A stretch of DNA of 64,000 nucleotides. It comes from Stentor roeselii (lineage: Eukaryota; Ciliophora; Heterotrichea; Heterotrichida; Stentoridae). Where the stretch lies: NCBI GenBank assembly GCA_006503475.1, contig RSEH01000036.1:142854-206853 (forward strand), given 5' to 3'. Numbering within the stretch: position 1 is the stretch's first letter; each line of letters starts with the position of its first letter. The position numbers and the translations under genes were made by a program. This document shows positions 13,006 to 49,399 of the stretch, in pieces. Under the pieces are notes generated by a model. That model had not been told where the DNA came from. It was given only the letters and a program-made list of their open reading frames with translations, and ran no database searches.

Positions 13006-16000
13006 CTAATCAAATAAAATCCTTGGAGATGTCTTTATCAAGCTTCTGTTGGTAGGTGTTTCTTGCAAAGTAAACCCAGAGGTATTAATAACTCTAAAAA
13101 CTTTAGAATCAGTGACTTCACTCGGCATGGTGACTCTTTTTCCTTTATCAATCTGCCTTTTCTTACATACCAGATAAACAACTGCTGAGTACACCGGTTC
13201 CAAAATAAACATCTGAACAACAGTAAAGATTAAAAAGTTAACCATCCAATCAACTACTTGCCCAATGCAATAACTTGCACAAATACAGCAAATCGCAATA
13301 AAAGCAATGATCGAAATGGTAAAGTTAAAAACAATCAAATGACTATCAAGTCTTTCATTACTGTATCGAAAATACTTCAAAATAAAATTGACCACTGTCA
13401 AAACCTGACTGCAACAAAGAGCAAGAATTCCTGACCCAAAAGCTTCAACCGTGAAAGACCTGAAATCAAGTTCAAGTCTCGAAACCTCTGAATCAATTCT
13501 TTGAATACTGATACCAACAACAGCCATAATCACAAGCATCGTGCTTAAAACCTCAAAAACAGCAGAAAGTCTTCTAAACTTCTTTTGTCTCACAAAAAGA
13601 CTAGAAACATGATAAAATGTCTTAAAAGTAAAAAAGTTATTTTCAACTAGCAAGTCAACTTTATCATTATCATAAAACACCAAACTCGCTATCAAAGCAA
13701 CGAAAATTAAAATACCTGAAATTTGAATCGGCTCTCTTGCGAACTGACAAATAAATACAAATTCCTTAATCTCGCCTTCAGAAAACACAAAAAAATCCAC
13801 CTCGATCATGGAATCATTTACTTTTAAGACTTGACAGGTTGGGGTGGAACATCGAGCACCTTGGATTTGGAAGGTGTTGGGCAAGAAGATTTTCAGAGCG
13901 TCCTTTAAAACTACTTGAGCTTCATTTTTTTCAATGTATTTCAAAGTGTATTGTTTAAAGGTCCCCACTGCGAAGATCCCCATTTTTATGTAAATCTTTG
14001 ACTTATCAACAATCGCTGCAAAGTAAAAGTCATAAACTAAAGTCTCGTTTATTTCAAGAGATTCAGGAAAAAAGATGTGAAGACCTTTTTCTTGAAGTTT
14101 TAAACCCACGAAACCTAAAGCGAGTTTTCTTACTTGCACAAGATGATTGTCGCTTGAAAGCTGAAAAGTCGTACCTGGAGTCGTGTCGATTACGAGGTGG
14201 TCAGCGGAATGCTCTAATAGGGCGTTCAAGGAAGTTTTATCAAGCTTTGAGAAATATTTTTCACTTTTTTTGAAAAGTTGAAGAATTTTTTCGATTCTTA
14301 TTCTTTTTGGATACTTTTCGAGGAACTTAACGACTGGCTCTGCCATTTCAAGCAAGTTTTGGTCTTCAGGTAAAAGATCTGAATCAAGAAGAGTGTTAAA
14401 ACAGTCTAGAATCAAGTCAAGAGTGTATTTATTTATTGAAGACATTGAAAAAGAGTCAGGATTTTCTATTATTTCTTGAAAATACTTAGAAAAAGTTTCC
14501 ATCAAGTAGTTAATCACAGGGTATTCTGAGTTTTTCGTCAGAAAAGCCATAAAACCATTCGGAAAATTAGAAGAAGTCTTCAAATAATCAATTAAATCCA
14601 TAAGTTCATCTGAAGTTCTTCTTTTTTTCTGATTGATATCCTCATAAAACATCCGACATGTTTCAAGACAGTCACAAACTCTAACAACAACTCGTTTATA
14701 ACCTTGAGGAATGTAAATTTTCACAACATTCTCTAAATTCACTTCATTTATCCACTTCGCACTCTGGTCCTTTTCAACCACTCCAGTCTGATAGACAAGT
14801 GGATAGTCTTCATCATCCAAATCAACACAATTAAGACTTGCAATGGTCCAGGTAGGGTCCTCAAAAATAGCTGAGACTTTTTCACATGAAGGGCCATTAT
14901 TGACTAAAAGTCTCAAAACTATTCTGTTGACTTTGCTGTTATCTGGACTCAATGCAAACAAGTACTGAGCACCAGGCTGAAGACTAAACTCAGGAAGTCC
15001 AAGATAAGAATTCGTGTAGTCCACACTCGCGTCATTCACAGTGCCTTCAACTGTCCAGGTGAAAGTAGGAAAGCCTCCTACCTTGATTTCAGGAATTATG
15101 TTATAGATGTAGTCAGGGTTCACTTTTTTTAAGTCAGTTGAAATTGTGATTGAACCTGAGACTAATCTAGAGAAAGTCGCTGTCAGTGAAGTGAATGCGA
15201 GTTTGTTTGAAGTACTTGCTGATAAGTAAAAGGTGTAACTTGCCTCGTCGAGTTTTAAATAAGAAACAAGAAGATTTCCGGAGGATTGACTGAAGTGAAG
15301 GGGTTTTCCGTCTTTGTCTTTACAGAGATGATCTGTTTGGAAACAGGTCCAGGTCTTTAAAATTACGGATGAAGAGTCGTCAGGGTCTTTAACGACTGGT
15401 TTTATTGAAAAGTCCTCAGTCATTGAGTAGTTCCCGTCACTTTTATCTAAAGATATCTCTAAAGAAGAGTCTTTTACTGTTATTGTCGTTGATGCAGTAC
15501 CTGTCGCTGTTCCTTGACTGACAACTACACGAAAATCATAAGATTTTCTAGGTTTTAGAGAAAAAGCTGAAAATTTTAAGAATTTTTCAGAAAACTGGGA
15601 ATTTAAAACATTTTTAACTGAAGAGTCAATTGAAGAGCTAGTCCATTTAAATGTAAAATCTTCAGATTGCGAGCATTTTTCTTTGATCACTGCTGAAATA
15701 GTTAAAGATTGAGAAGTTTTATGATAATAAATCGCTCCTGGGGTTATAGAGACAGAAAGAGCAGGTTTTTCAGTGATTTTTATAACTTTCACAGCTGAGG
15801 ACCATGCAATTTCACCAGTTGTGAGGTTTAAAGTAACTGTCAAGGTGCCTGGTGTAAGAAGGTCTCTTGGGATATCCAGAAAGTTTTTAATGTTTTGACT
15901 GACAAAATCACATACTTTACTGTTACTTGGCAGGTAGTCGCAGGTCCAGATGAATGAAAGTTCTTGTCCTTGATTATTTGATATTAACTGAAGATTACTC

Positions 16001-19000
16001 TTGCCGCAAAGTAAAGAGTACTCGTTTGGACCTGAGATAGAAGCTTGTTGAACTGAGTATGAAGAATTTTTTTTTATTGGAATTTTTAGTTCTTCGTAGT
16101 TAAAGGAACATTTTGAGTCTGCAGCTTCTAATTGAAGTTCGTTTAATGATAAAATGTTTGAGGTTAAGATTGGGTATGATGATAATTTTACTTGTAGAAG
16201 AGAAGGGGTTATCCAAATGCATTCACCATTTAAAGCGTTATCGGGACTTGTTATTATTTCAGAACATTTTTTAAGTCCGATGATTTTCACATTACGAGAG
16301 AATTCAGTGTAAATGATTTTATAGTCGTTGGAATAGTAACTATTTATTTCTGATTTTAGGAAATAACTTCTGCAGTGTAAACACATACCAGCCACTTCTT
16401 CAAGATTATCGGAACAGGCACAGGAATTGTTGAGAGGAATGTAAAAGGCTCCTGATGTGCATTCACAACTAGCTCCTAAATCCTCACTCGGATAAGACAA
16501 AGCCTTACAAGTTCTGCAAGCTGTTGTATTCAAGGCAATTACACACAAAGGGTCTGTGTTGTTAGAAGGCTGTACAACAACATTTTCAGAAGCTTTTGCT
16601 GATCGGTACACGAACTTGATTTCGGTGTTTCCAGTAAAGCTGAAATAAGTTGTTAAATTAACCTGGCCATTTTCATCAGTTTGGATTTCATCAAAAAGTG
16701 TGCCGTTTATATAGATCTCAACAACAGCATCTGCCACTGGCAAGCCAGTGGCTGTATTCATGACAGTGCCTATGAAAGAATAAAGGTACTTTTCTTTCAC
16801 TTCTTCAGTTAAAGACTCGATATTAATAATTATATCCTTGTCGAATACTACATTCGCTTGTTGGGTACCTGGTAATAGTTCTTCACTGGAGGCAGTAAAA
16901 GTGAACTGATCTGTTTGGTTTAGAGAAACTTCTGTATATTTTAAAACTCCTGATGATGTTTTTCCTTGACTAGCTCCATTAAACCAACCAGAAGGAGTAA
17001 CATCAAGATTAATCACAAAACTTCCATATTTACTTTGAATCAAACTTCCATCATTGCTGCAAACTCTTACTGAAAAGCTAAAAGGCTCTAATAATTTAAG
17101 ATCATTTTTCGGAAACCCAGCAAATATCAGGCGTTGCTTCAAGACATTCACTGAAACTTCAGCAAATCCAGGAAGACTAGTCAACATAAATATTCGTACT
17201 CCAGGAGATTTACAATAAAGTGAATGAACAACAGTTCCTGATGATGTTGTTCTTGTAATATCACCGATAAAATCAGCATCACTTGTTAGAGTCGTTGTGG
17301 CCGTTTCTATAAATGGACTACCGAACTGGTCAAAGAGGTATCCAGTGACTTTGAAGTCGAAGTAAGCTGTTGGGTTCACGTCGCTTAGTTCTATTCTCAC
17401 TTCGTTAACATAAGGTTCAACGATTTTCAATGGATTGCTACAACCTGAAAGCATGTCGTTTGAAGAAGCACAAATTTGCATGTCCCCCAAAGTGTTTATT
17501 TTAATTCCTGAAAGGACTAAACGACCTCCAGAGGTTTTTCCAGTTATTGTACCTAGTAAGGAGCCAGAAGGTATCAAATAAAGAATTAAAACATAAGGTC
17601 CATATTTCAATTCTTTAAGTTTCACTAAATGATCATAAACTTCAACAGTAACCGAAAAAGCATCAGTCTTAAGATTCGGCTAAATATCATTTACCTTTGG
17701 ACTACCCAGAGAAACAACAATTTGATCCTTTTTGACCTCAATAGACCTTGTTTTCACATAACCTTGACAAGCAATCTCCACTGAATAAGTTCCAGACAAA
17801 GAGTACCTAAAAGTAAACATAGCAATCCCATCAGAGCTCATAATCGATGAAGTGACTAAACTACTACCAGTTAAACTGACCAACAGCGAAGGAGTATAAA
17901 CAAAGCCAGTCTCATCATAAACAGTAGCCGTTAAATTTAAGTCAAAATTACTCGAAATGACTGAAGGGCTGATTGAAAGACTCAAGGTTAATGACTTTAC
18001 CTTTATTTGCCCTCCAAGGCTTGAAAGCTTGTCAGTTGACATCACTTGCAAACGAGTTGTTCCGATATATGAGACTTTTAGTGAAGTGAAGGAAACACAA
18101 CCATTGGATGTCTGTTTTGATAGAGTCCCTGTCAATGTGTTCACCAATGCGTTGATATTTATTGTGAATGGACCGTATGAACTGATTGTTGTTAAGCTCT
18201 GACTGTTTAACACACAGACTGTGCAGTCTAGTGGAGTTGTTGTGAATATCGATTCGGTGTAAAGCGTTGATGGACTTACTGAGGTGATTTGAAGAATGTT
18301 TTGTTGGATTGATACTGAAGAATCACCTGATATTGAACCAGCGGTTACTTTGATTTGTTTTGTCCCACTGATACGGCTGTATACTGATAAGTCTAAAGTT
18401 CCTGTTGTTGTTGAACCTGAAAGAGTTCCTAATATATCGTTGTTAGTACTGGTCACAATTAAACTCACATTTAAAACCCACAACACGCCTCTCTGATCAA
18501 AAATCAAAATCCTCAAAACAAATTCAACAAAAGCATCAGGTGCTTTATCAGAAGGTGTAACCAACAAGCTAGTAATTCTAAGCGCTTCAATTTCAAAATA
18601 CTCAGTTCGATCCTCTTCCATTTGGTTTCCAGTAGCTTTAACACAATAAACACCTCCAGTATTAATAAAAAGATTCTGAAACAAAGCAATTCCCGACTCA
18701 GAGTTTTTTCTATCCACTCCACTAAGAGTTCCAGAGCTAAGACTGACTTGAACAAAATGAGGTCCTTTCGAATTTTCTAAAACAGATCCATCATTATTAT
18801 AGACTTCAACAGTAACCCCAAAGACTGAATCCGTGTAAACAGGCTGCTTAAATCTTACCATTGGACTAGGATTCGAGATCTTTAGTTTATTTTTCAGAAT
18901 CGTTATCAAAATACTTGCACTTACCGAACCACTGGTGACAGTTAAAGTATTGAGTCCAGCAGTTTTACTATATAATGTCACTGAAACAGTCCCTTTATCA

Positions 19001-22000
19001 GTGGTTAAGGAAATTTGGCCAAAAACGTCTAAATCACTAGAAATAACTAAATCAGTCCCTTCAGTCCAAAGCTCTCCCACCTGGTCTCTTAACATAATGG
19101 TCAAGACATAATCGAAGTAACATGACTGCGCAGAATGACTTAAAATTAACTCAATACTTGTCAAGGCTAACTTCGAAATAATCAGCTCATCACTAGTTGC
19201 TGAGATTTTATCTGAAGAACTCGCAACAAGCTGATATTTTCCAGCTGTTGTTATCTTCAAACCGGTAAAAGTGACTACTCCAAAACTTGAATCGGAACTA
19301 GTTGAACCCACCAACGTCCCTGAAGAAGACAAGTTTAAAACTACTGTAAAATCCAGATCTTCACTTAAAAGAACTTTCCCAGAATAGTCGAATATTTTTA
19401 CTTCAACAGAAAAAACAGAAACTGTTAATGTTGGCTGTATTTTTCTTACTATTGGGTTAATATCTGTAAATTTTAAAAGATTTTTCAACACTGTTATCTC
19501 CAGTTTTCCTTCAACATTCCCAGAACTTGCTTTAATTTCAACTGTTCCTGACTTGTAAAAGTAAATTGAAAATAAAGCCGCTCCTGAATCACTGGTCTTG
19601 GAATCTAACCCGAAGAAAAAAATTTTATCTGACAAGGTGATCGTTGTTGAGGAAAGCCAAGGGTCACCTGCTTGATCTTTAAGAACGACTGAAAGACTTA
19701 CATAGAAAAACGCTGAAGGACTTTCAGGGTCAACATTTAATTGAATACTTGTCAATTCAATATCTTTAACAATAAACTCTTCACTTATTCCCTGATCACA
19801 CTCAGAGCAAGTAGCTTTAATCTTAAAATTCCCTCCAGTCGTAACTTTAAGTCCATTAAAACTCGCTATTCTCTGAGAAGTCTTTGAATTTAACCCTCCA
19901 GATAAAGCTCCTGCAGGGCTAAGCTCGATGAAGATGTCGAACTCAGCTGCTTCCTCAGCCCATGAAGAGTCATCATTATGAGAGACTTGAACAGAGACTG
20001 AAAAAAAACTGCTGGTGAGCCAAAGCTGATTAAATCTTACATTTGGCTTATCAATGTTGACTGAAAGTTTCAATTTTCTTATCGTTACTAAGACGAACGC
20101 AGTGAGTCCTCCACAAGAGACGTCAAGTCTAAGTTCCCCTGAAATTTTTCCGTAAATTGAAAACTCGAATGTCCCTGAGGAAGTCGACTGGGAAAGACTA
20201 CCTCCTGTTAAGAGACTTGGTGAGGCTTCTACTGTGCTCGATGAAAGCCAAAGTCCATTACGCTGGTCTCGTAATGTCCCTGTCACTGTGAAGAAGGTAA
20301 AAACATCTACTGTTGAGATTGAAGTAGAAACTGTTATTGAAAATAGTGATAAAGCTGAAATTGTTATTGTTGTGGAAGACTTGTCTTCAAAGCCTAAAGC
20401 TGAAAATTTCAAAGTGAAGGAATTCGCAGTTGTTATCTTTAAAGAAGTGAACTTTGCTGATCCAATTGATGAGGACTGGATCAGCTCGCCTTCAAGTGTC
20501 GCTGAAGGGTTTAAAGTGACTGAAATATCGAAAGAATGGAAATTTGAAAGAATTTCACCACTCGAGTCATAACCTTCAACAATGCAGGTGAAAATATCGA
20601 CTGGGTACTCAGGCTAAATATTTCATACCCTTGGGTCAATTGACACTATTTTCAGCTTGGATAAAAGAATTTCAATAATTTTACTTGCTGTTAAGTTCTG
20701 GACTTTCGCTGTCACTATGTTAGACCCACTTTCTTTGCAGTAAACTTTTAATGTGATAGTGCCAACATGGTCGCAAAGCCCTGAAGTCTCTCCAAACAAA
20801 ATAATCGTTCCTTCTAATGTAACTGAAAGTGAACCTGACGTGTAAGCGACTCCTGCTTGGTCGAAAATCGAAACTGTTACTTCGAAGTCAAAATAAGTTG
20901 ATTGACTAACTTTGTTAATCGCGATTGTTATTGAATGAGCAGAAGGGTCAGTTACCAGATAAGCTCCTGAACTATCTGAAATCAAGTCAGTCCCATCAGC
21001 TTGAATCCAGAAATTTCCACTTGTTGATATCTGACAGTTGCTAAAAAAATACTCCCCTGCACTACCTGACTGCCCTGAACATGAAAAATCGCCATTTGGA
21101 TCCAGTGATAAACTAATTCCATAACTTCCACTTTTTTCAATTAAGCTTTCATCATTATTCTTCACATTTACAGTTACTGAAAATATTGAAGTGATTGAAT
21201 TTGGCTATTTAAAAAATACGATTGGATCGACTTGAATGATCTTTATCTTATTTTTCAGAATAGTTACTTTCAATGTGCTGACAACTGAACTGTCGATATC
21301 TTTGCAGGTCAATGAAAGTTCCCCGGACTGATGACCTTTTAAAGTAAAGACACTGACCCCTGCAGTTGAAGTGGACACCAAAGGACTAGTAACGAAATCT
21401 CCTGTTAAAGAAAGCGACTCATCTGATGTCCAAGGGTCTCCAAGTTGATCATAAAGAGAAGCAGTCAATGAGAACTCAAAGTTGGCACTTGGAGTACTTG
21501 GCGATGGAAAAAGCTTGATTTCACTTAGAGCAAGACTCGAAATTGTTAATGTTGAGGAAAAGTCACTCAGCATGTCGGGTGAAGAGGCTGTCAAAGTGAA
21601 TGAACCTGGACTTGGAATTGAAAGATTTGTGAAGGTCGCCTTGCCTGATGACGTCTGTGACTCACTCGAACCACTGAGGGAGACACTCGGTGATAACGAT
21701 AATGTTATCAGAAAAGGACCGTGAGATGTCAACTGGGTATTCCCGATATTGTTGTAAATACTTAATGATAGGTTGAATTTCGATACAACTAGTGAAGGCT
21801 GAGTGGGAATTACTGTTGGTGATAGATCTAAGATCTTAAGTCTCGCCTTTAGCACGTTTAAAGTCACTTCTCCTGATTTCGAACCAATTTTAGCAGTGAT
21901 TTTGTTTTCTCCTGAAGAAGAGCAATAAACTAAAAACGTTCCAGTTCCTCCTGAAATGACTTTTAAAGTCTCTCCAAAAACTCCTACTGTTGACCCTAGA

Positions 22001-24264
22001 CTAACAGAAGATTCGCTAGTCCAAATCAAGTTTTTCTGATCCTTAAGTACCACAGTAAGTTCGAAGTCAAAATAAGCAGTTGGAGAATAATCGTCACTAG
22101 TAACAATAACAGTGGTCAACGCCAAGGCAGTCACTAAAATATCTGCACTAGTCGCGTTCAGGCAATCAAAACACGAAGCCAACACCTGAAAAGTCCCAGG
22201 ATTTCCAATAGCAAGTCCTGTGAAGCTAGCAGTAGCCGATGTAGTACTTTTCGTAAGTAATCCACTTAAAGTTCCTGAAGAACTCAATTCAAGTTGAATC
22301 TCGAAGTTTCCTCGAACGGCATCATTATCGCCGCTGTTATCTTTGACCTTCACAGTCAAGTCAAAGAAGTCTCCAACATACAAAGACTAAATAAAGAATA
22401 CAGTTGAAGAAAGACTGGTAAAAACTACTTTAGGCTTCAAAATTGTTATTGAAGCTGAACCTGTCACTGAAGAACTCCAGGCTTCAATCAAGAAAGTGCC
22501 TGAACTGATGGAGTAAAGAGAAAAAATCACTGATCCTGAAGTAGTTGTCTTGCTTGTTGTTCCTAAAAAGTTACTGCTCAATAAAAGATTTACTGAAGAT
22601 GAGCTGGTGAAGACTTGATTTCGTTGGTCGAATAGTGTCACTGTCACTTGAAATTCGAAGAAAGCGGAAACTGAAGATGGGGAAATGGAAACAGTAAGAG
22701 ATGTCACTGATAGAGAAATAATTGTTAATTGGATACTACCTGGCAATAGACTTCCACTTGAAGCTGTCAGGGTGTATGTACCTGCTGAAGCTATTGACAG
22801 GTCTTTAAAGGAGCAAGAACCTGAATTTGTATCTGAAGTGATTATTCCTGATAAGGTCACTGAAGGGGTCAGTGACAGAGAAATCGTAAAAGGCCCGCGA
22901 AGTTGAAGAATCGTTGTCCCTTCATTGTTAAACACGCTTGTTGATATTGAAAAAAATGCTGAAGAGTAAATTGTCTGAATATAAAATACTGTAGGAATAA
23001 TCGAGTTTATCATTATTTTGCATTGAAGGATCGTCAAGACCAAGGTGCCTGATATTGACCCTGATGTCGCTTTTATACTCACTGATCCTGAAGCAGTGCT
23101 GAAGACCTGAAATGTTGTTATTCCATTTGATGACGATGAAGACAGTGATACTCCTGAAATCACATTCGGAGTCGATGTGATGGCGACGGTACCTGAAGAA
23201 GTCCAATAATTCATTGACTGGTCGAATAATGATGCAGTTAATGTAAATGAAAAATACATCGATGGTGAATTGTTATCACTCGTCAACACAATAGAAGTTA
23301 AAGCTTTCGTCACTATAGTATAACAACCACAGCTCACAGAAATCAAATCAGTCGATGAAGCAGTGATGCAATAAACCCCAGTCGAAGTAAGTTTAAAATT
23401 CGAGATCGTCAATACCCTCAAATAGGTATCTCCATTTAAAGTTCCAGTCAAAACTCCATTTTTATCCGCATTGAAATAAATACTGAACTCTCCTCTAGTC
23501 AATTCACTTCCATCATTCGCAACGACTTTAACAGTGATCGCAAAAACATCAGTGACAAGAACAGGCTATTTTTTTCTTACAGTTGGAGAAACTTCGACCA
23601 ATAAAATCTTATCCTGCAAGACTGTGATTGTCGTGTTGCTGGTGACTGTCTGAGAAGTGGCGATTATTGTATTTGTCCCTGATTTTTGACAATAAACATC
23701 ATGGACAATGTACCCAAGATTAGTTGTTTTTTGAATATCTCCTGATATTCCATTCGTTGCACTGAGAGTCACAGTTGCTGTTTCAAGATAAGGCACCCCA
23801 CATCCATCTGTCAGGTCTAAACGAACTTTAAAGTCACTCCAGGCACTTGGGGTGAGTGTGTTGATGGAGAATGTGAAATATGACAATGCGAAGCCTTGAC
23901 TTACATGAAAATTTTCACTTGTCCAGAGAAGATCGTATTTTGGAAGTTCAGTTATAGTGATGTAGTAATCACCTGGAGTGAAAACTACATAGTTCAGGAC
24001 ATCACATCCATTGATCCCTATTAGTTTGCATAGTTCGCTTTTCAACAGAACAGAACTTGAGTTGTAAAGGTTGATGTTGATTTCTGCGGTATAAGGACGA
24101 ATATTTCCATCTGCCGTAAAGGACTTTATGTCCATTTTAAAAGCCTTGCAAGTGACGTCTACCTAAGTTTCTATTACAGGAGGCCATAGAACGACCTTGG
24201 GTGTTCCTTGGTTGTTCTCAGCAGACACCAGAGTCCATATAACTATCAAAGCCAGTCCAAACAT
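13006..24264 (-). CDS. giant Ig-like repeat / REJ-like / polycystin-1-like membrane protein (11 introns)
   Basis: The spliced model is 3,697 residues. A signal peptide (MFGLALIVIWTLVSA) leads into 13 Ig-like repeats of ~180 residues. Each repeat has a GPFxIxLxLS strand pattern, then AxFDFxLTVxLxDQxG and a closing SGTxTIxVLKxKL segment. Next come a small Cys-rich module (~2510-2570) and a REJ-like region with conserved Cys and Trp. The last ~240 residues carry five membrane helices whose order and W...EPVYSAVVYL ending recall polycystin-1 TM1-TM5. No PLAT domain, channel domain or clear GPS cleavage site is visible. All 11 introns are phase 0 and sit at repeat starts; five end CAG and read through in frame. 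The family link is inferred from architecture; a role in adhesion or recognition is plausible. The 3' neighbour is a relic region; the upstream paralogue ends 45 bp before this ATG. Confidence 0.87.
17680..17694 (-). other. 15-nt intron, repeat-phased
   Basis: gtaaatgatatttag, phase 0, between GSPK and PNLKTDAF. Ends TAG, so it appears as a stop. Confidence 0.9.
18844..18858 (-). other. 15-nt intron, hidden (reads through in frame)
   Basis: gtaagatttaagcag, phase 0, after NPSPM; if retained it codes V-R-F-K-Q. Located at the repeat boundary. Confidence 0.8.
19435..19449 (-). other. 15-nt intron, hidden
   Basis: gtaagaaaaatacag, phase 0, after DINPI; retained form codes V-R-K-I-Q. Confidence 0.8.
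20026..20040 (-). other. 15-nt intron, hidden
   Basis: gtaagatttaatcag, phase 0, after IDKPN; retained form codes V-R-F-N-Q. Confidence 0.8.
20614..20628 (-). other. 15-nt intron, repeat-phased
   Basis: gtatgaaatatttag, phase 0, after SIDPR. Contains TGA and ends TAG in frame. The downstream exon has no other start. Confidence 0.9.
21205..21219 (-). other. 15-nt intron, repeat-phased
   Basis: gtattttttaaatag, phase 0, between QVDPI and PNSITSIF. Confidence 0.9.
21799..21813 (-). other. 15-nt intron, hidden
   Basis: gtaattcccactcag, phase 0, after DLSPT; retained form codes V-I-P-T-Q. Confidence 0.8.
22387..22401 (-). other. 15-nt intron, repeat-phased
   Basis: gtattctttatttag, phase 0, between SLSST and SLYVGDFF. 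Confidence 0.9.
22975..22989 (-). other. 15-nt intron, hidden
   Basis: gtattttatattcag, phase 0, after SIIPT; retained form codes V-F-Y-I-Q. Confidence 0.8.
23566..23580 (-). other. 15-nt intron, repeat-phased
   Basis: gtaagaaaaaaatag, phase 0, between EVSPT and PVLVTDVF. Confidence 0.9.
24163..24177 (-). other. 15-nt intron joining signal peptide exon to repeat 1
   Basis: gtaatagaaacttag, phase 0, after VVLWPP. The first exon supplies the only signal peptide and ATG, which supports it. Confidence 0.88.
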
Positions 24265-24309
24265 TTATATTCAAATCATCAGAATGCCAATAAACTCTAA
24301 TAATCTAAC

Positions 24310-27300
24310 CTAAACATCTTCTAAGTTACTGTTCACCCTTGAATACGTCGGCCTCTGACTCATTACGTTCTGAGTTTCATTTAAAGGGTAAATTTCAACT
24401 TTCTTCTTTTTCGGATTCTCAGCGGCTAAGGTTCCAGTCGTTTCAACTTTTTCAGGTCTTCTTCTGCAGAAAAAGGAAAAAATCAAAGCCATGAGCGGCT
24501 GTGCCGCGAATACTTCAATCAGACAACCTGTTCCACTGATAAAAAGCCATTCATCTGGACTAGAGAAACAGATATTTGAAGAAAGTAAAACAATTACTGT
24601 CGTTGCTGCTAACATGACTGAGAAATTGAGTAAAATTGCAATTTTTTGGAATTTTAAATTGTTTCTTTGCCCGCAGAGAATTAAAAAGTTAAGAAAAGTC
24701 AAACTTTGACTGATTGTCAAGGCGGATAACATCCTTGATGTTTGGCTTGCGTTGAAAAGGTCAGTTTTGAATGAAGAGGTTAGAAGAGAAAAGTTGTATT
24801 TGGTGTAAGTCAACCCGACTATTGAGAAGACTGTCAGAACGCCTGAAGCGATTTTAAAAACACTCACAACACGCTCGAGATTCTGTCTTGGAATGAAGAG
24901 GCTGGAAAAGTTGAACATTTCACAGAAACCGAACTTGAGAGGATTCACTAGTCTTCGTTTTCGGTCTCTTATGAAGAAACCTAATGATGCTGATAGGATT
25001 ATGAAGAAAAATGAGATTGATATGGAAATGCCTTTGGTGGAAAATGAACATTTGGAAGTTGATGACTCGGAAATCAGGTAGGATCCAGAATTGTATAACT
25101 TGATTGTGATTTGGCTTGAGTTAAAAGTATCAACTGAGCATTTATCATTAGATGAGGAGCATTCAATTGAACTAAATGAGTTCTTTTTGTCAAATGTGAA
25201 TTGAACAGGTTTATTAAAAGATTCAAGATTTTTCTTTTGCTTATAAAGATTCAAGTTATATGAAGACAAATCTCCACTTTTTTCTAACAGCAAATCAAAA
25301 GAAATTGATAAAGAACTTATTGAAAAATATGAAAAATCTATAATATCTTCAGAGTTTTTCGAAATTTTTTCAGGAATTTTAATTGAAAAATCTTCTAAAA
25401 CCACAACATCTTCAGTATCAATATCTGACAGTCTTCTAACCATAACAAATTTCAACCCAAAGTCAAAATAGTACTTGAAAGGAGGAGGCACATCTTTAAT
25501 CAAAGCACCAGCAGCAGCGAACACAATTTCTTTCAAAATTTTATCATTTTTCGATAAAAGTAACTTCGAATAAATACCTAAAATAGAATCCATTCCATCA
25601 ACATCCAAAGAAATTCCAAATTCCTTAAAAATCTTCAAAGTCAATTTAGTAGAATTAGCAACGATTCCATCATCAACCAAGTCTTTAACCCCTAAAATAG
25701 ACTTCAAGCATGCGATATACAAATCAACCCCAAATTCAAAAGCACTTGATTGCGAGAAAAACGAGTAAAAACTTGCATAAAGGTAAGAAAAAGCAGGAAA
25801 GTCAATAACCATTTTCGAGTAATAAACAACGATATTCGGAATATCATCTTTATTTCTAGTAAGCTGCATGATTTCCATAAGCAAGTCATTATTGAGTCTT
25901 TCAAAATTCTTCACTTCTCTCTCGAAGACCTTGAAAGTCCCAATCTTATTGATGACTTTTACGAGAACTGCTGAAGAGCCAGGAGGGATCCAAACATTGA
26001 TCTGTGAAGTCTCAGCAGGACTAGTCATCCAAATGATTTCTCCGTCATTCGCCCTGCATCCGACCTGGTAAGCAAGAGGATAGTCATCATCAACGCATCC
26101 TACAACAGAAACCAGATGATTCTTCCCGTCTTTCGCGACATGGACCTCTTCACAGGCCGGGGCTTGACTGGTGAAAACTTCTCCGAAAGACGAAAGGTTT
26201 TGAAAGAAGTTGTTTTGATTCACTTTAACCTCCACTCGATATCTCTGCCCTTCTGACAGTCTTTTCGCTGGAATAACGAGATAAGGAAGGTTACTTAGAA
26301 ATGATTCGTTTTTTAAAGACTCATCTGATAAGGTCCATTCAAAGCTGTGGGCAGGTCCTGCCGGGAGACTGTAAGTGGGAAGAAGGGAAAATTTAGCAAA
26401 AGGGTTGATTTTTTTAAGGGGAAAGGACAGTTCACAAGAACCTGGAATTGATGAAAATATTGAAAATGTCAAAGTTTCGGTTAGTGATTTGTTTGATGAT
26501 GTCACTTCGATAGTGAGAGTCAAGGTTGAGCCTAGCTTTAAATGCGACTTGGGAAGGAATAAAGTGCTTTTGTTGAAAATTAATGAAAGAAATGATCCTG
26601 AATCGTCTTTACAGTTTCCTGTCAGGTCAACGCAAGTCCAGATTACTTCAAAGTCACTGGATTCTGAGTTTTGGATCGTGTAGTGAATGACTAGGTCTTG
26701 TTTATTTGAAATCATTCCACTTGACCTGCTTAAAATAAGTGTAAGTTGATCATTTGGCACTTCCAGTTGTTTTTTTACTCTGATTTCTTGAAGCCCGTTT
26801 ATGAGTTTCAAGTGAATTTCCACCTTTTTATTCAGAAGGTCCTGTCTGGGGATTAGTAAAAGTTCTGGTTTATCAGAATCAACGAATTTCGAAAGAGCTT
26901 CAAACTGAGGACTGGTCCAAACAAAAGTAAAGTTGTTTCCAGAGCAAAAATCACTGATTTTTGCAGAAATTTGGTATTTTTCAAGGTCAGAATGGGCAGG
27001 ATGAGTGATTATTTCAGGAACTACTACAGAAGAGTCAGTGATATTAATGACAAGATGCTGAAAAGCAAAAGTTTTCAGTGACTTCAGCTGGACCCTCACA
27101 CTGAGTGTCAAAATGCTTGGATAGAGGTAGTCGAAGGGTATTTCTATCTGATTTGACTCAGTGGAAGCGACAAAGACTCGAAAATTATCATTTTCAGGGT
27201 CAGAGTTCGACATCCATTTATAAATAAAATCTTCAGAACTAGGTAAAACTCGTGCTTTTAAGGCTTTTTGACTGCAAGGCAATGAAAAGGTTTCAGGACC

Positions 27301-30300
27301 TTCTATGAAAAACTCAGGAACTGGCAAATCAAAAGCTTTTCTTATCTTCAACTCAAGATTTTCTATTAAAAAAGTGCAGTTTTCAGCTCGAGTTAACAAA
27401 TTTTTACTTTGAAATCCAATCAGGTCTTGATTTACATCAGGTAAGGTCCTGAGTTTCAAAAGTAACAAATAAGGACTTTTCCAGGTGCAGGAAATGACGA
27501 GGTCTGAATAATACCCTGGCTCGATCAGGTCTTTGCAGGTTAGGCTCAGGTCTGCTGCAGGTCTTTCGAAAGAAACTTGAATGATTTTGAAACATTTGGA
27601 AAAACTTGCTTGGATTTCAGAGGTTTTGAAGTAGTTTCTGCAGGATACGCAATGATTTTCAGACTCTTCTGAATCGTCAAGGCAGTCACATTTGGAGGTC
27701 TTGGGGTTTAGGCTACTTTTCGGTACACATTCGCATTTACCTGAGTTTGGAGAAGATTTTGATGAACACTTCTGGCAGATTGATGCGGATTCTGATATTT
27801 GGCAAAGAGGGTCTTCGTTGTCTGATGGGTTTACTATGATTTCAGTTGTGTAGAAATAATCATCTAGCTTTGCTTTTAGGGTGTATAGAGAGGCCGTTGG
27901 GAAATGGATTGAGTATGAGGAAAAGTTGCCTTCGGAATTAGATGGATTTAGTTTTTGGTTGTTTAGGTAAAAAGAAATCGACTTTGGATCAATGAACTCT
28001 GACTTGACTTGAGTAATATTTCTCCCACTAACTTTAAAAATATAAACATACTTGGCTTTAATCTCATCTTGAGGCTGCTCAACATTTAATTCAATGACAT
28101 TCAAATCATAAACCCTAATACTAGAATTGAACGCAATCATCTGACCACAGCTAACTCTCAAGCAATAAACTCCAACATCCAAAAGAGAAATATCTTTGAA
28201 TCCAACATACCCATCATAACTCTTTCCAGAAATCTTCTCCAAAACATCCTCCCCTTTAATAATCTCAAGCCAGACCTCATAATGATTTCCCGATTTTTCA
28301 ATATTTTTTCCCCAACTATCAAAAACTCCAAAAACGACATCTAAAATATTTCCAATTTTTAAAGTCTGTTTAAATTTTACATTCGGTAAACTAGATACAA
28401 GACCAAGTCTCTGCGGATTGATGAAGACTTCAAAACTCTTAACAACTTCATCAGCTGTTATCTTAAAACGAGTGATTCCAGGGGATTCAATCAAGACAAT
28501 AAACTCAAAAAAAGAGTTGCTTGTCAACCCCTCGAAATCCCCGACTTCACTGGAAAGACTTACTTTTAAAGGAGAGGTCCAAGGGGCGTCGTATTGGTCC
28601 TTCACCTGCCCAGTGACCTTGAATTCAAACCAGGCAGTCAGCAGGTTGAAGTTTTCATTGACTTGAACTTTATCTACTTTCGGAATATCAATGTAAAGCT
28701 TTTCACTTTGATTGTCAAGCATTCCTTCGCTTTGGATGATTAAAGAGTAAATTCCTTTTGGCTCTATCTGCAAAAAGCTGAAGTTAAAAAAAGGGTTGGA
28801 AGATTCAGACTCGTTTTGACCTTTCAAAGTACCTGAAGATGGGTCGAGGATGATGGAATAATTAAAAGATTCAGATTTTGTCACTGGTTTAGAACCTTTG
28901 TTGTCAAATACTCCGACAACTGCGCTGAAATAGTCGTTGATGTGTTTAGGCTGAATATTTATTACTTTTGGAGTGATTTCCAGGAATTTCAGCTGATTTG
29001 GAAGGATCTTCACTGAACTTCTCGAGAAGGATGAAGAGGCGAAGACCTCAAATGAGAAGTACCCAGAATGACGGCTGTAATACCTTCCTTCAACTTTTCC
29101 TTTGTTGTATAATAAAAGATGAGGACCTTGAATGGCTTCTTCAAAAGAAACATTCAAAAGGAAAGAGTCTTGAATCACTTTCCCCTGCACGTCGAGAAGA
29201 GAAACTTCCATAAAAAAGTCGAAAAATGCTGAAATTTCTGAGGAATTAAAAGAAATTTGAATCGAGTCAACTTCTGGATTTGAAATGAAAAAAGGTCCTA
29301 AAACTGAAGGTTCAGTTAAATTTGAAACAAGGGATAAACTCATGTTTCCGCTTGTTAAAAACTGACAGTTCTCGAATTTACCCTCGCCTGAAAAGGTTTC
29401 TACTGAATTTTCAGAACATTTCATAAAACCTTCAGGCTCTGGATGCACTTCGATTAGGTAGCTTCCGAAATCTTGGATTGTTCCGTTTAGACCGTTTTTT
29501 ATCTGGAATTGAACGTCAAAGAATTCTTTTGTGTTTGATGGCTGATTGGATTTTACTGGAATTCCTGATATATTGAGAAGGATTTGGTTTTTCTTGATTT
29601 TTAGCGATAAAGTTGAGTTGAAGTCTTCTGCGAGGAAGAATAGATTTAGGTCTCCTGGAGAACGGACTCGGAATTTGAATATTGCTGAACTGTTGAAGGT
29701 CTTGGCTTTTGTGCTGCCAATCAATTGAGTATCACTCTTAACCTGGATCTCAACTTCTCTTCCCAAGATTTTCCCATACTGATCCGAAACAGTTGCATTA
29801 ATAAAAAACTCTTCCCCAACAAAAGGTTTAAAATTCGAACTTACAACCCTAAGTGCCATCAAAGGTGTTTTCTTAATATCAATAAGCTGACTAAATCCAG
29901 TTTTCAATCCAGATCCTTTAACAACAACCTTAAACAATCCCGAAGAAGCAATCCTAAGTCCAGTAAACTTACAAATTCCTTTTTCAGTCTTAACTTCAGT
30001 ATCTCCAAAAAACTCTCCTTCAGGATTAATTTCCAAATAAATCCAAAATTCTTTCCTATTCTGTCCAAGTCGTTTCTGCCCAGGTCCGAAGACAAAGAGT
30101 GCCGCTTGAACTTCAAAGTTATCATGTTGGAACTGTGGCTAAATAAGAAATACCCAAGGCCTGACCTCTAAAATTTCAATCTTCGGTGACATGACCTGGA
30201 ACATCAAGTTGCCAACGACAGGTCCGATGACGACTGCTAAAGAGTTGGATCCTTGCGTTGAACAAAAGACTTCGAATTCAGCTTTTCCGTTTTTTACTTC

Positions 30301-33300
30301 AACAGTTAAGTTCCCGTCACTTGCCAAGTCATCAGAGTAAGAAAACAACGTCACGTTAATCGCTTCTGAATAAGGCTCTTCTTTTTTATTTCTAAGAAAA
30401 ACAGTTACTAAAAAAGGGAAATAAGCTGTCACGTACGACTCGTTCGAAGTCATTTTTATCGACCATAGGTCGAGATCTGTGCAGGAAACTGAAGAGTCGA
30501 GACTACTGACGTTGTGAAAGCCTGGATCACATTCACATCCTCCTGAAGGGACTGGAGAAGCGTTTTTGGCCTTGCAGGAAAGGCAGGTCGAGTTGTTGTC
30601 ACAGAACTTGCAGTCCTGATGGCACTTCAGACAACTTGTAGTAGTGAGTAAGTCTGAAATGTTGTAATAACCCAAGCCACAGGAGCATCCGACTTTAAAA
30701 GGAAAAGCGTTTTGACTGATGCACTTTGAGCAGATATCAGATTGTGTGCAGTTGAAACAATTCGGGTGACATTTAATGCACGAGTCGCTTGAATCCAAGA
30801 CTGATACATTGAAGAAGCCCTCGTTGCACCTACATCCAGAACTGGCAAGATAAGAGTTTTTTGCTTTGCAGACCTTGCATCTCTCGTTATTTGTGCAAGT
30901 TTCACAGTCATCGTTGCAAGCTTTGCATGAAGGCTGAATTTCGCTTGAGGGGTCGTTGAAGAAACCAGCTCTACAAATGCAATTCGCCCCTTCAACGATG
31001 GAGTTGGGGTCACTGCATACCAGACAACTGTCAGAAGTGCACGATTTGCAACCCTGCCCACATTTTTCACAGGATGAGGGAAGGCTGAGGTCCTGAGTCT
31101 GGTAAAAGCCGTCTTTGCACCTGCATCCTCCCAAAGATGGCTCCGCATTCAGAGATTTGCAGACAGTGCACGTGCTCAGGTCAGTGCAGGCCCTGCAATG
31201 GTCTCCACAGGCAAGACATGAAAGCTCGCTGTTCAGCTCGCTTGTATTAAAGAACCCTTCCTCACATATGCAACCTTCTCCAGAAGGCCTCGCGTTAAAC
31301 GCGAGGCAGGAATTACAAGAATCACCATCTGAGCAGTCCTGACAATCTTTTTTGCACTTTTGACAAGATTCAAAAGAGTTAATAAGTCCTTTTGAAAAAT
31401 AGCCTTTCAAACATTCACATCCTAGAAAATCATCAATTTTCTTAGCATTTTCTGAAATGCATGATAAACATTCAAAGTCTTTTCCACAACTATTGCAGGA
31501 AGGATGACATCTTTTACAAGATCCTTGCTGGGATAATGAAGTTTTATTTGTGAAGCCTTCAAGACAAATGCATCCTGATGACTTATGAGGACTTGCATTT
31601 GAATCAATGCAAGATGTGCATTTTCCTGATTCTGTGCATGAACTACAGTCAGGATGGCATTTTTCACATTTTCCTGAAGAGTGAAGGGCTGTAGTGTTGT
31701 AAAAACCTGGAAGACATTCACAGCCTTGAGAAGCTGGAGAAGCATTTTCATCAACACAGAAAATGCAAGTTTTTTCAGCTGAGCAAGTCAGACATTCAGT
31801 GAAGCAAGGTTGACACGCGAAGGAAACGATAAGAGCAGAAGAGTTAAAAAAGCCAGGAAGACAAACACATCCAGCGTTATCAAAAACTCTTGAATTTTTC
31901 GCAACACAAGCAGAACAGGCTCCTGTTTCTAAGCAAGAAATGCAGTCTAAACTGCAGAAAAGGCATTTTCCTCCTACGTCAAGAGCTGAATTGTTGTAGT
32001 ACCTTGAATTACATGCACAGTTACCGTCATTCACCTCAGCGTTAGGGTCTTTGCAAGTCAAGCAGCTGCCGGGAGATAAGCAGTCTTCGCATTGTTCATC
32101 ACATTTAAAACAGTTTAAATCACCTGAAATGTCGATTTTTCCGTAAAAACCTTTTTTGCAGATGCATTTTTTTGACTTGTCTTCAGAAGGCTCTGCGTTT
32201 GGCTCTTTGCATTTGGAACAAGATGAACTTTCAGTGCAAGTCTCGCAGAGAGGGTCGCAAATTAAACAGGAATTTGAATGATGAAGTCTTGTTGTGTTGT
32301 AATAACCTGATTTGCATAAACAGCCTGTCTTTGCACCTGGAATCGCGTTTTGGTCTATGCAGGTGTTGCACCAGTTTGGATCTTCGCATGATGCGCAGTC
32401 TAGGTTACAGGAAAAACAACGCTTTTCACTGTGATATGAATGGTCTGGACAGTCACATGCTAAACTATGAGCGCACCAACATGATGTCTTGTTTAACTTT
32501 AGTACACAACTTTTTTCTTTGCAGTTGCAGGTTAAGTTAGTCCCTAGATGGCATCCAAAATGAGGTTTTTCTCCCTTCATTCTTCGACATTCATTACCCA
32601 TTGAGTCCTGCTCGAAATTAGTATTACTTGGGAGACAAAATATCCTTTCATTAAGTAAGTAGCTTGGATTGCATATATTTTGGCAGTGATGAAGATAGCA
32701 GTTTCCAGGTGAATAACTTCCTCCAATAAAATCAATAGAGCCAATAACATGAAAAAAAACATTAATCTCAAAAACAACACCAATAAATGCATCTTTTTCC
32801 TTCCCCAATTGAAAAACAGCATAACCATCATCTTTCCATTTTTTCTCAAACCTTAAACTCGCGACTTTAAGATGATTAGCCTGCAGGTGTAATCCATCCT
32901 GATCAACACAAATAGCAAGAAACATCCAAATATCTGCTTAAGTCTTACTTCTTTTGAAACCGTTCCCTTCCGAAAAAACAATTCCAGAGTCATATTCATC
33001 AAAAGCTGCTCGAACGCTGAACCGTTCTTGATGATGAAGCAATTCAAGAGCAAAGGACGAGTTTCTTCCAGTCTTCGATATAATCGAAAAGGACTTGTCT
33101 TCTACAGATGAAGATTCAAGTAAAAGAAGCCAAAGACTAGTGCAAAGAACTGAAGGGGATTCAAATGGACCCTCAGCCACTTCGTTAGGAGGAAGCAAGA
33201 CATATGAAGACTGGTCTCGGTCGAAGTACGCCCCACGGTCAGTCGGGATAGAATCAAATAAAGTCGTCAAGTTACTTTCCCCGTTGACTCCCACATATTT

Positions 33301-33408
33301 TTTCGAAGAGTAGTCCTGAAAGATCTGCCCGAAATTTTCATGAAACCGATACTGCAGCACTTGTGCGGCGCAGGTGAAAACCAGAGCAAATAAACTCACG
33401 GACAGCAT
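24310..33408 (-). CDS. giant LamG-like / Cys-rich / Ig-like / REJ-like / polycystin-1-like membrane protein (5 introns)
   Basis: The spliced model is 3,007 residues. A signal peptide (MLSVSLFALVFTCAAQ) precedes a LamG/concanavalin-like domain (YRFHENFGQIFQDYS..., ~18-240) and a Cys-rich linker. Then come 13 Cys-rich repeats of ~49 residues (C-x2-C-x3-C-x2-C...NA...C-x-C-x2-G-F/Y). Ig-like repeats, the small Cys module, a REJ-like region with VVGCVDDDYPLAYQVGC, and five C-terminal helices (last ~240 residues) follow. The end from the Ig-like repeats on is collinear with the downstream gene, so they are tandem paralogues. Intron 1 is phase 1, inside LamG. The other four are phase 0 at Ig-repeat starts, three of them hidden. 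N-terminal LamG and Cys repeats are shared with the 43-48 kb gene. No PLAT or channel domain seen. Polycystin-1 kinship is an inference. Confidence 0.87.
28366..28380 (-). other. 15-nt intron, hidden
   Basis: gtaaaatttaaacag, phase 0, after SSLPN; retained form codes V-K-F-K-Q. Confidence 0.8.
28951..28965 (-). other. 15-nt intron, hidden
   Basis: gtaataaatattcag, phase 0, after EITPK; retained form codes V-I-N-I-Q. Confidence 0.8.
29542..29556 (-). other. 15-nt intron, hidden
   Basis: gtaaaatccaatcag, phase 0, after ISGIP; retained form codes V-K-S-N-Q. Confidence 0.8.
30139..30153 (-). other. 15-nt intron, repeat-phased
   Basis: gtatttcttatttag, phase 0, between EVRPW and PQFQHDNF. The downstream exon has no start of its own. 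Confidence 0.9.
30481..32418 (-). repeat. 13 Cys-rich (furin/EGF-like) tandem repeats, coding
   Basis: Thirteen units of about 147 bp / 49 aa, each with eight Cys and a central N-A or N-S, ending in a GFYN-type turn plus N-glycosylation sites. Units differ at many non-Cys positions, so the array is old rather than recently expanded. Confidence 0.85.
32934..32948 (-). other. 15-nt intron in LamG-like domain
   Basis: gtaagacttaagcag, phase 1, after GFKR. Splicing removes a TAA and yields KRNIWMFLAI, continuing the domain. Confidence 0.88.
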
Positions 33409-46400: not shown

Positions 46401-48193
46401 AATTTTGTGTAATTTGCTCTAGTCTTGATGAAAAAAGCTGCATTGAATGCGAGTCTGGATATGAAGTTATCGGTTCACAGTGTCTGAATTGCACTGAAGG
46501 TAAATATTATGACAGTCATGATAAGAAATGTAAAAATTGTCAAGGGTTATGCCTTACCTGCACTGATGAAGATAAATGCATAAAATGTAAGGATTATAGT
46601 TCAAGAATGAAAAATTATAGCTGTGTTTGCGATGAAGGCTTCGAAGATGAAAATAATCAGTGCATACAAGGAAACTTTTCAGCAAAACTATGGATCAGCA
46701 AAGATTTCGAAATCCACTTGGTATTTGAAGAAAGCCTTAAAAATGATTTAAAAACAGATGATATTGAAATTAAAATCGAAAAAGAATTGATTACTTTCGA
46801 ATTAGAAAAGCAAGATATGAAAAATTTCATTTTAATCCCTTCACTGACTTCAACCAAAAAAGTTTCAGTCGAAGTTTTCCTGAAAAATCGAATAACTTCA
46901 GTGAAAAATCATGTTTTAACAACCAAATATTTCAATAAAATCTTTAAAACAGGATCCTCTGATGAAACCAGCAAAAGTACTCAACAACAAGCAAAGACAT
47001 CAAAAACGGCAGCCCAATCCTCAGCAGCAGCTTCAGCGTCCGCATCTCTGACTTTTTCACTTCTAACAATGGATCCATCATCTTTTTTCGATTTCATGAA
47101 CACAGCCGAAATCTTCTACTCTGTTTATTTGTTTAACTTTAAGTTGAACCCGATATTGCAGGAGTTCCTGTTGAACTACAGAGTTCAAGGTTACATCCCA
47201 AACGCTTTTGTCTACATCATCGACGAGAAACAAGCGAAAAAACTTCCAAAAAAACTAAGAAAATTCGGATATTCTAGCAACTTAGCACTTGTTAACCTCG
47301 GCCCTCAGCTTCAAACCTTGATTTTTTTCTTGCTTATCTGGACTGCTGTTAAAATATTGTCTTGCTTTAGTTTTTGTAACCGAAAACTCGAAAAAACGAG
47401 AAAAAAATTCAAGTTTGGAGTTTTTTTGAGAATCTGGATACAAACTTTTTTCGAGTGTCTTATTGCTTGCTTTGTCAGTTTTTATTATAACAGGTTTGAA
47501 AATAACTTGCAAGTTGTTGATTTTAGCTTCACAGTACTACTGGCAGTAATATTTAAATAGTTGTTTCAGGTCTTCATGGTTTTTTTCTTGTTGTACCTGC
47601 TTAGAAGGAAAAGTTCAATTAGAGATCCTGATGAAAAAGAACAGTTTGACTTGAAATATGGAGTGTTTTTTGAAGAGTTTAAAGAAGAAGGTGCAATTTT
47701 TCAGTTGTTTTACTTTTTTTTTATTTTGAGAAGGATTGTTTTACTTTTATGCTATGTTTTTATTGAAGATGCAATGTTTCAAATGGCTATTTCGATCTCT
47801 TACTCAGTCATAGTAAAGCATATGTAGTTACCTTATTATATTTTATGGAGAAAGGTCTTTACAAATAAAGGTTTCAATTATTATCACATCAGCAATGAAG
47901 TCATCATCTCTACTTTCCATTTTGTTCTGTTTTCTTCATTCCTGCAGTCAGATAAGCAGAGTGATTTATATGCAACAGTCTGTTATTACCTTATTTTAAT
48001 GGCTGTTGGGTTGAATATGGCTTTTAGTAGTATTGGAATGATCAAGGATATCATTGCAAAAATCAAAAAATGCTTGAATAGGAGAAAAACTGGAAAAGTT
48101 TATGAGGTTTCTGGAAATACGGAAATTGTGAATAAAACATCTATAGTTAGTGAAGCAGCAGAAGGAAAACCCGATAAGATTAAGGAAAAATAG
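43463..48193 (+). CDS. giant LamG-like / Cys-rich repeat / TRP-like membrane protein (2 introns)
   Basis: The spliced model is 1,566 residues. A signal-like start (MFLFVLCCLSESVI) precedes a LamG-like domain (YRFGKNYGNVFYDYSGNQKHGING... TDRGIYLK). This is recognisably homologous to the N-terminus of the giant gene at 24-33 kb. Cys-rich repeats follow (~230-690), then a second LamG-like domain (~710-930), more Cys repeats (~930-1070), a short Ser/Ala/Gln linker and about eight to nine helices (~1190-1540). The helical part has FDLKYGVFFEEFK and a long hydrophobic bundle, in the style of fungal TRP-like (PF06011-type) proteins; this identification is an inference. A tail of ~45 residues ends it. 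Both introns are phase 0 in the membrane part. A surface receptor or sensor is likely; ligand unknown. Confidence 0.87.
47546..47560 (+). other. 15-nt intron in membrane region
   Basis: gtaatatttaaatag, phase 0; joins FTVLLA to LFQVFMVFF inside a helix. A at position 10. Confidence 0.92.
47813..47827 (+). other. 15-nt intron in membrane region
   Basis: gtaaagcatatgtag, phase 0; joins YSVI to LPYYILWRK. A at position 10. Confidence 0.92.
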
Positions 48194-49399
48194 TTTAGTT
48201 TCATGAATAGTAGTTTAAAATTGTTTTGTTCGAAAAACAGCATAATACTAAATTCCAAATAATTCATATTATATTCAACAAACATTTTTTAATTAGTGTC
48301 AGCATAATTAAGAGTAAATCGTTCAAATGTTAATCTTTTCAGTACTTTAGGGATTAATTCAAGTTTTGATCAACTTTTAAAGTTAAATTTTCAGTGTTTA
48401 GGTTGGAATTAATACAATAAATCTTGGAGACTACTTTGATATTTTTGAAACTTCTTAAATTTGAATTAGAATTTGATATTTAAGCTTAACTGAATATCAG
48501 TATTCAAGCATAGAAATATTTTCATTTCGTCTTTAATAAGACGATGATAAAGTAAGGCAGATTAAAATTTAAAAATTATCCTTTGCTGCTCACAGACTCA
48601 ATCATTCAACATCAATAAATGCATTTTTATATTATTCATCATACTTCATAGTCTAACATTCTATTAATATTTGAAGCCTAATTAATCTTTACTTAAATTA
48701 TTAGTGAAACCTAAAGCATATTAAAGGAAATGATGTAAAATTTGAAGATGACCAAAATTTAATATATTTTTCTTTTTAAGATTTACGATTATAATGAAGA
48801 TTTAAAAATTCTCCTGAAAATCATCAATTGTCATACTCCAGTTGGAAATATCTACAAGAAATTTGCAAAATTCTGATAAATTTCGGTTTGTTCAATCGGA
48901 ATCAAATATTATTGAATTTGTAACCATCTTCAAATATGACTTTTTCTTCTTCAGGTAGTATAAATGAATTTTCTAGTGAGTCTCTGCCAGTTGTATTAGA
49001 TATTAACGCTTATAAATTTGAAAGCATTCATTGAGAAGAATCAGTAATCTGCAAGCTGAGTGAAGTTTTTAAATATCATTGTGTGGTAAATTGAAAAAAA
49101 TAAAACCATGATTTTAAAAACGGTGAGCCTCAGGAAGAGAAAAATTAAAATTATGATTTGTTGAGAGTATCTAATTTAATCCTTCTTCTTTGTTTGAAAA
49201 GCAGGGCTGCTTTTGGAAAGAGTATCATTAATAAAAATAATCACAGCAGTATGAATAATTTTTGAATTTATCACTTGACTAAACAGGACTAGGTGCTCAC
49301 TTGGAATTCTTATAGGTGGGCTGATTTTAACTGTATTTAAGATTCAAACAACTAAAGTGATTCTACACATTCTTGCTCTAAATCACTAAAAAAATAACT
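48194..49399. other. intergenic, AT-rich
   Basis: About 1.2 kb after the giant gene. I see no ORF, structured RNA or repeated unit that I could defend. It begins the gene-poor, relic-rich 48-63 kb section. Confidence 0.45.

Follow-up and report, generated by a model that had tools for sequence, protein, structure and literature searches.

Stop-free 15-nucleotide segments at the repeat boundaries of a giant gene family in Stentor roeselii read as probable hidden introns

A stretch of 64,000 nucleotides (nt) from the heterotrich ciliate Stentor roeselii (contig RSEH01000036.1, positions 142,854 to 206,853), henceforth referred to as the window, carries two giant tandem genes, A and B, on its minus strand. 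Eight 15-nt segments within these genes stay open in frame at the boundaries of a protein repeat. Judged from the sequence, the eight are very probably ordinary 15-nt spliceosomal introns of the heterotrich kind that are normally cut out, a reading that rests on sister repeats, where introns that are built alike and contain a stop codon occupy the corresponding position. The kind of intron is already known. The surprising part is that 30 of 77 such segments in one gene family are translatable.

The original prediction placed eight CAG-ending 15-mers at phase-0 repeat boundaries and gave for each its lowest base, which is the 3' end of a minus-strand segment. All eight were confirmed at those coordinates, each 15 nt long and in phase 0, with the motif GTA-N6-A-N2-CAG and a translation of the form V-x-x-x-Q, and all share one boundary of a repeat of about 192 residues that comprises two predicted immunoglobulin-like (Ig-like) domains. 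Gene A contains GTAAAATCCAATCAG (VKSNQ, 29542..29556), GTAATAAATATTCAG (VINIQ, 28951..28965) and GTAAAATTTAAACAG (VKFKQ, 28366..28380). Gene B contains GTATTTTATATTCAG (VFYIQ, 22975..22989), GTAATTCCCACTCAG (VIPTQ, 21799..21813), GTAAGATTTAATCAG (VRFNQ, 20026..20040), GTAAGAAAAATACAG (VRKIQ, 19435..19449) and GTAAGATTTAAGCAG (VRFKQ, 18844..18858). These and all other features described for genes A and B lie on the minus strand.

The two genes hold a further seven phase-0 15-mers, all of which end in TAG. Six of the seven visible introns stand at the common repeat boundary and were scored as such, namely 30139..30153 in gene A and 23566..23580, 22387..22401, 21205..21219, 20614..20628 and 17680..17694 in gene B; the intron at 20614..20628 (GTATGAAATATTTAG) holds an in-frame TGA in addition to TAG. 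The seventh, at 24163..24177 in gene B, follows an apparent signal peptide and is outside the 84 boundaries scored below. A phase-1 intron of gene A, GTAAGACTTAAGCAG (32934..32948), ends in CAG and contains an in-frame TAA, which makes it a visible CAG intron and shows that, in gene A itself, a CAG end is present on a segment that must be removed.

Homology at the repeat boundaries was assessed with a 120-column profile built only from 47 spliced, stop-bearing TAG boundaries of the window genes and of loci on contigs C490, C50, C432, C201 and C88, so as to avoid circularity. The five paralogous loci are among the best of 91 repeat matches, and the profile was scanned over the unspliced three-frame translations of their genes and the window genes. 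Of the resulting 96 boundary rows, 12 were set aside, either for scoring below 20 bits or for scoring below 30 bits without a splice-like 15-mer. The cut was uneven, as two rows of 20–30 bits with the motif, both among the window's eight, were kept and four without it were dropped as half-period matches. The 84 strong boundaries comprise 47 with a TAG 15-mer, 29 with a CAG 15-mer, one with an AAG 15-mer and seven without an insert at the junction.

The CAG and TAG segments proved closely alike. GTA and an adenine at position 10 (A10) were both present in 29 of 29 CAG segments, compared with 46 and 45 of 47 TAG segments, respectively, where A10 denotes the presence of the base and not its use. 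The AT fraction of positions 4–12 was 0.854 for CAG and 0.842 for TAG segments, and base make-up differed between the two at none of these positions (p 0.26–0.99). A second stop, TAA or TGA, was found in 4 of 47 TAG introns and in none of 29 CAG introns (Fisher p 0.29). All 29 CAG segments and the AAG segment have a length that is a multiple of three and would introduce no in-frame stop if retained; these 30 form the translatable class. The AAG-ending insert, GTAATTATCAAAAAG (VIIKK), is located on the minus strand of one paralogous locus (C490:100501-109500, L029; local 3613-3599) and represents either an uncommon splice site of the AAG type or a former intron now fixed as coding sequence.

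Profile alignment alone placed exactly five inserted residues at 62 of the 77 insert-bearing boundaries. A 15-nt deletion was also moved over 41 in-frame offsets and the profile scores were compared. Removal at the motif raised the score in all 30 stop-free cases, with a gain of 4.5–15.3 bits (median 11.1), and the motif was the best of the 41 offsets in 23 of them. Within the window, it ranked first for 28951..28965 (11.7 bits), 22975..22989 (10.9 bits), 21799..21813 (13.0 bits), 19435..19449 (11.7 bits) and 18844..18858 (11.3 bits). Removal improves the score for eight of the eight window segments, and the motif is the best offset for five of them. At six boundaries no insert is present at all, including the last scored boundary of gene B (17103..17104, row AB 5632) and, likewise, the last scored boundaries of C432, C490 and C50 (rows C432 2183, C490 2578 and C50 2067).

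The two 3' ends are also interchangeable among sister repeats. A tree of the 84 repeat units, in which 46 of 81 inner branches are open, end branches are long and support is weak, required 23 changes between TAG and CAG. Treated as groups, TAG required 26 changes and CAG 24, where shuffled data gave means of 27.3 and 24.2, respectively, showing that the state is not clustered; the CAG segments thus behave like the TAG introns with a single base altered. In one example, in which units from three paralogues group together (SH-like approximate likelihood ratio test, SH-aLRT, 92), CAG is present in C432_2438 and C50_1508 and TAG in C490_1847.

Codon choice and motif enrichment separate the segments from ordinary coding sequence. 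GTA accounts for 249 of 1,409 valine codons outside the scored junction introns (17.7%), and eight of eight GTA by codon choice alone would have a probability of about 1e-6. Among 18,054 codon positions in the six loci, the strict CAG motif stands in frame at a repeat boundary 29 times and elsewhere once, and we read the single off-boundary match as coding by comparison with sister units. In open reading frames of at least 250 codons, in-frame GTA-(NNN)3-CAG was found 20 times, 13 of them in the window, compared with 2–9 times at nine other spacings, and the GTT, GTC and GTG versions showed no peak at that spacing. On the gene strand between 34000 and 12500, the strict motif GTA-N6-A-N2-YAG occurs 18 times, with 15 matches in phase 0 (7 TAG, 8 CAG), two in phase 1 and one in phase 2. 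Matches at other phases in the window genes include those at 26612 and 13375, and the former looks coding when A and B are compared. A look-alike, GTACTTAAGGATCAG (22036..22050), lies within a conserved DQ motif of gene B without A10; it is coding and serves as a negative control.

CAG-ending introns are also indicated beyond this gene family. The pattern GTAN6ANNCAG was counted 4,822 times genome-wide, compared with 2,693 and 2,920 times at spacings of 18 and 12 nt, respectively, while GTAN6ANNTAG was counted 5,826 times against 2,840 at the 18-nt control only. The resulting excess of about 1,900–2,130 in any phase makes CAG-ending 15-nt introns look like a regular class. AAG was considered as a third regular 3' end and rejected, as its 7,340 counts at 15 nt compare with 5,950 at 18 nt and 7,651 at 12 nt and show no consistent excess. 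In an NSUN6-like gene unrelated to the family (L019:4126-4899), GTAAAGCCCAATCAG codes VKPNQ, and a five-residue excess falls in or adjoining it relative to human NSUN6 and an archaeal homologue. Together with the stop-bearing homologues and the insert-free boundaries, these data favour the proposal that the CAG segments are introns. A separate observation concerns position 4, where A was estimated to make up 1.21 (0.96–1.44) of the CAG excess and 0.74 (0.51–0.96) of the TAG excess, based on 100, 100, 74 and 72 of 100 listed matches per pattern. CAG-ending 15-nt introns may carry A at this position more often than TAG-ending ones; the ranges just touch, and this is regarded as a lead.

The relationship between phase and 3' end outside the family was surveyed in positions 10001-110000 of contigs C1 and C10, the remainder of the window and loci L005-L008. 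Open-frame candidates in phase 0 numbered 12 TAG and 2 CAG with a flank of 60 codons, or 10 TAG and 4 CAG with a flank of 30 codons and the coding frame best, and phases 1 and 2 together gave 3 TAG and 11 CAG or 4 TAG and 9 CAG, respectively. With a margin of 3 under the latter filter, phase 0 held 5 TAG and 2 CAG, and phases 1 and 2 held no TAG and 4 CAG. Other intron lengths gave 0–3 candidates per class. All these numbers are small and include background. The association is small and filter-dependent, and its direction, which is that expected from selection for a stop in retained introns, is suggestive. With phase-0 TAG preferred elsewhere and 29 CAG among 76 YAG ends here, the family would be lenient. 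A tentative explanation, which we consider possible and no better than that, is that where introns are fixed at 15 nt selection for a stop acts by phase, with TAG in phase 0 and mostly CAG in the others, and that the Ig-repeat family, with its 30 of 77 translatable introns, is exempt, either through the harmlessness of an extra five-residue loop or through weak surveillance in this lineage.

Several observations weigh against reading the segments as introns. The extra length found by profile alignment is not always five residues, with three or four at 14 and seven at one of the 77 insert-bearing boundaries (15 in total). Alignment places the segments ending at 29556, 28380 and 20040 less well, with offset ranks of 7, 8 and 7 of 41, although removal still gains 6.2, 7.8 and 8.1 bits, respectively, and the boundaries at 29556 and 28380 score just 24.3 and 20.9 bits. 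One gene B boundary (18267..18268, row AB 5244) has no insert at the junction and five extra residues nine profile columns downstream, where no splice-like 15-mer was found. The motif alone is no proof, as one strict in-frame match looks coding. The same motif in a lectin-like gene at C10:60011 marks no more than a candidate. In 200 kb outside the window, in-frame GTA-(NNN)3-CAG occurred 7 times, compared with about 4.2 on average for nine other spacings; with A at position 10, the figures are 4 and about 0.8. This in-frame excess is small, and beyond the family it is not clear that stop-free phase-0 CAG introns are common. Near the boundary at 18268/18267, an in-frame GTG-N6-A-N2-CAG 15-mer at 18213-18199 was also observed and looks coding.

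Other explanations of the open frame were weighed against the same data. Regulated inclusion, by which the CAG introns would be kept or removed by choice as in exitrons, so that a repeat may or may not carry a loop insert of five residues, had been raised as a possible route and is not favoured. Retention would be in frame and stop-free in 29 of 29 cases, and a boundary insert might be tolerated, given that the predicted exon-unit model begins and ends in coil and stops there. However, the CAG state changes on the tree as often as in shuffled data, though that tree is weakly supported, and the lack of clustering means that inclusion is not a kept trait. Composition at positions 4–12 equals that of the stop-bearing introns. 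Exitrons of Arabidopsis and human are likewise stop-free introns inside an apparent single exon, but are described with weaker splice signals and higher GC (PMC4484396); the present segments match neighbouring stop-bearing introns in motif and AT content. We consider regulated inclusion improbable. Even less probable is that the segments are genuine five-residue coding inserts. They are open in frame as such inserts would be, but their GTA and A10 are invariant, their length is a uniform 15 nt, their codon choice is not typical of coding sequence, they share their place with stop-bearing introns, and six boundaries lack any insert and one lacks it at the junction.

Two further alternatives draw on ciliate biology and are both extremely unlikely. 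If TAG were read as glutamine, TAG and CAG 15-mers would both code V-x-x-x-Q, and other ciliates also use stop codons as sense. Blepharisma is reported to read UGA as tryptophan (PMC9942806). In the six loci, however, the 17,674 codons that fall outside scored junction introns hold in-frame stops only at the end of gene A, in the A-B intergenic stretch and in the first intron of gene B, and the four TAG 15-mers with an additional TAA or TGA would remain interrupted. Among 135 scored of 1,346 candidate matches to the kinase family PF00069, 10 hold TAG, 3 hold TAA (one holds both) and none holds TGA; together with the six-locus codons, these counts fit stops that are used as stops and confined to introns. 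The 15-mers might instead be short internally eliminated sequences, of the type that ciliates remove, still present in an assembly of germline DNA, and the TAG 15-mers do hold TA near both ends. Excision from TA to TA would nevertheless take 11 nt and shift the frame, the CAG 15-mers have no second TA at that place, and A10 with GT-AG ends would fit splicing.

As spliceosomal introns, the segments resemble those described in other heterotrichs. In Stentor, 8,173 of 8,806 introns are reported as 15 nt long, with position 10 as the usual place of the branch A (PMC9505925), about 93–95% of heterotrich introns are given as 15 nt (PMC9505925, PMC11441545), and Blepharisma introns are given as 15–16 bp (PMC9942806). 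The introns of Stentor coeruleus and Blepharisma stoltei share with the present segments the 15-nt length, GT-AG ends, A at position 10 and AT richness; 15 nt, GT...AG and A10 were found at all eight window sites and in all 29 CAG segments. They differ in that one intron recurs here per two-domain repeat of a giant family and many are in phase 0 without a stop. Translatable introns, as described in Paramecium, are likewise multiples of three that lack an in-frame stop and, when retained, go undetected by nonsense-mediated decay (PMC11334263, PMC5663052). They are reported as depleted in intron-rich eukaryotes (PMC11334263, PMC5663052) and as counter-selected because surveillance cannot see their retention (PMC11334263). 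Paramecium is described as avoiding them mainly by intron length, a route not open to introns of 15 nt. The reports of depletion concern intron-rich eukaryotes, and known heterotrichs are intron-poor, with 18–20% multi-exon genes (PMC10946202).

The introns were probably copied together with the two-Ig-domain repeat, and position 13 appears to have drifted between T and C. A T at this position would give a TAG end and an in-frame stop, and a C would give a CAG end that reads V-x-x-x-Q. Both kinds would normally be removed, leaving repeats that are near-constant at 190–194 residues. As 15 is a multiple of three and the introns are in phase 0, retention of a CAG intron would lengthen the protein by five residues without alerting stop-codon surveillance, and we infer that such retention would be an error rather than regulation and would go unnoticed by nonsense-mediated decay.

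Gene A (24310..33408) encodes 3,007 residues after removal of five 15-nt introns, in a single frame broken only at these introns and closed by a single terminal TAG. Its paralogue, gene B (13006..24264), encodes 3,697 residues after removal of eleven 15-nt introns and has a single terminal stop; in both genes, every in-frame stop before the terminal one falls in a 15-nt intron. Phase-0 segments follow residues 1080, 1274, 1466 and 1656 of A, and residues 29, 223, 415, 606, 797, 990, 1182, 1373, 1565, 1757 and 2140 of B, a spacing of 190–194 residues (191–194 in B) that is doubled once in B, to 383. By eye, gene A shows an apparent signal peptide, a Cys-rich N-terminal region, Ig-like repeats and hydrophobic C-terminal segments. 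The C-terminal regions (24313-28365 in A, 13009-17679 in B) show several hydrophobic stretches by eye, and no Pfam family scored above cut-off in them. The 91 repeat matches in the genome, on C490, C50, C432, C201, C88 and other contigs, mark a giant Ig-repeat protein family, and in the six loci examined one intron is present per two Ig-like domains at a fixed place. The window's contig (C264) belongs to a 44.4-Mb assembly of 522 contigs (GCA_006503475.1). G+C is 0.26–0.27 at window positions 48001-56000 compared with 0.33–0.40 in the other 4-kb steps.

The structure of one exon unit (18859-19434), folded with ten sister exons, was predicted as all-strand with a mean pLDDT (predicted local distance difference test) of 92.7 and a pTM (predicted template modelling score) of 0.72, and we read the model as two Ig-like sandwiches. 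The best Foldseek matches of the repeat unit were intimin (E 9.7e-8), invasin-type (1cwv, TM 0.59 on query) and S-layer domains, and Pfam Big_1 fell below its cut-off (20.8 versus 34.9 bits). The likeness to invasin/intimin-type Ig-like repeats concerns the predicted fold of two-domain pieces only and carries no claim of function; sequence identity is 14–18%, TM scores are modest, and the gene here is eukaryotic and intron-bearing. From the alignment, the intron probably lies near the start of the repeat's first domain, in the loop connecting that domain's first two strands, the model itself ending at the boundary.

Open-frame continuity cannot exclude introns in such genomes, and gene models built here without splicing would contain V-x-x-x-Q insertions at conserved positions; it is reasonable to expect automated annotation to add such five-residue tags. 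The Blepharisma and Loxodes annotations are described as taking introns from mapped RNA sequencing reads (PMC9942856, PMC11441545), by which hidden introns would be exposed in expressed genes. A thin literature search, judged by title and the start of the abstract, found no paper on stop-free heterotrich introns. A translatable share of 30 in 77 is unusual, given that introns of this class are reported to be selected against in intron-rich eukaryotes. As most heterotrich introns are 15 nt long, the idea of counter-selection can be tested on one base, namely whether position 13 of a phase-0 intron is T or C, and the Ig-repeat family offers matched visible and invisible introns within the same genes.

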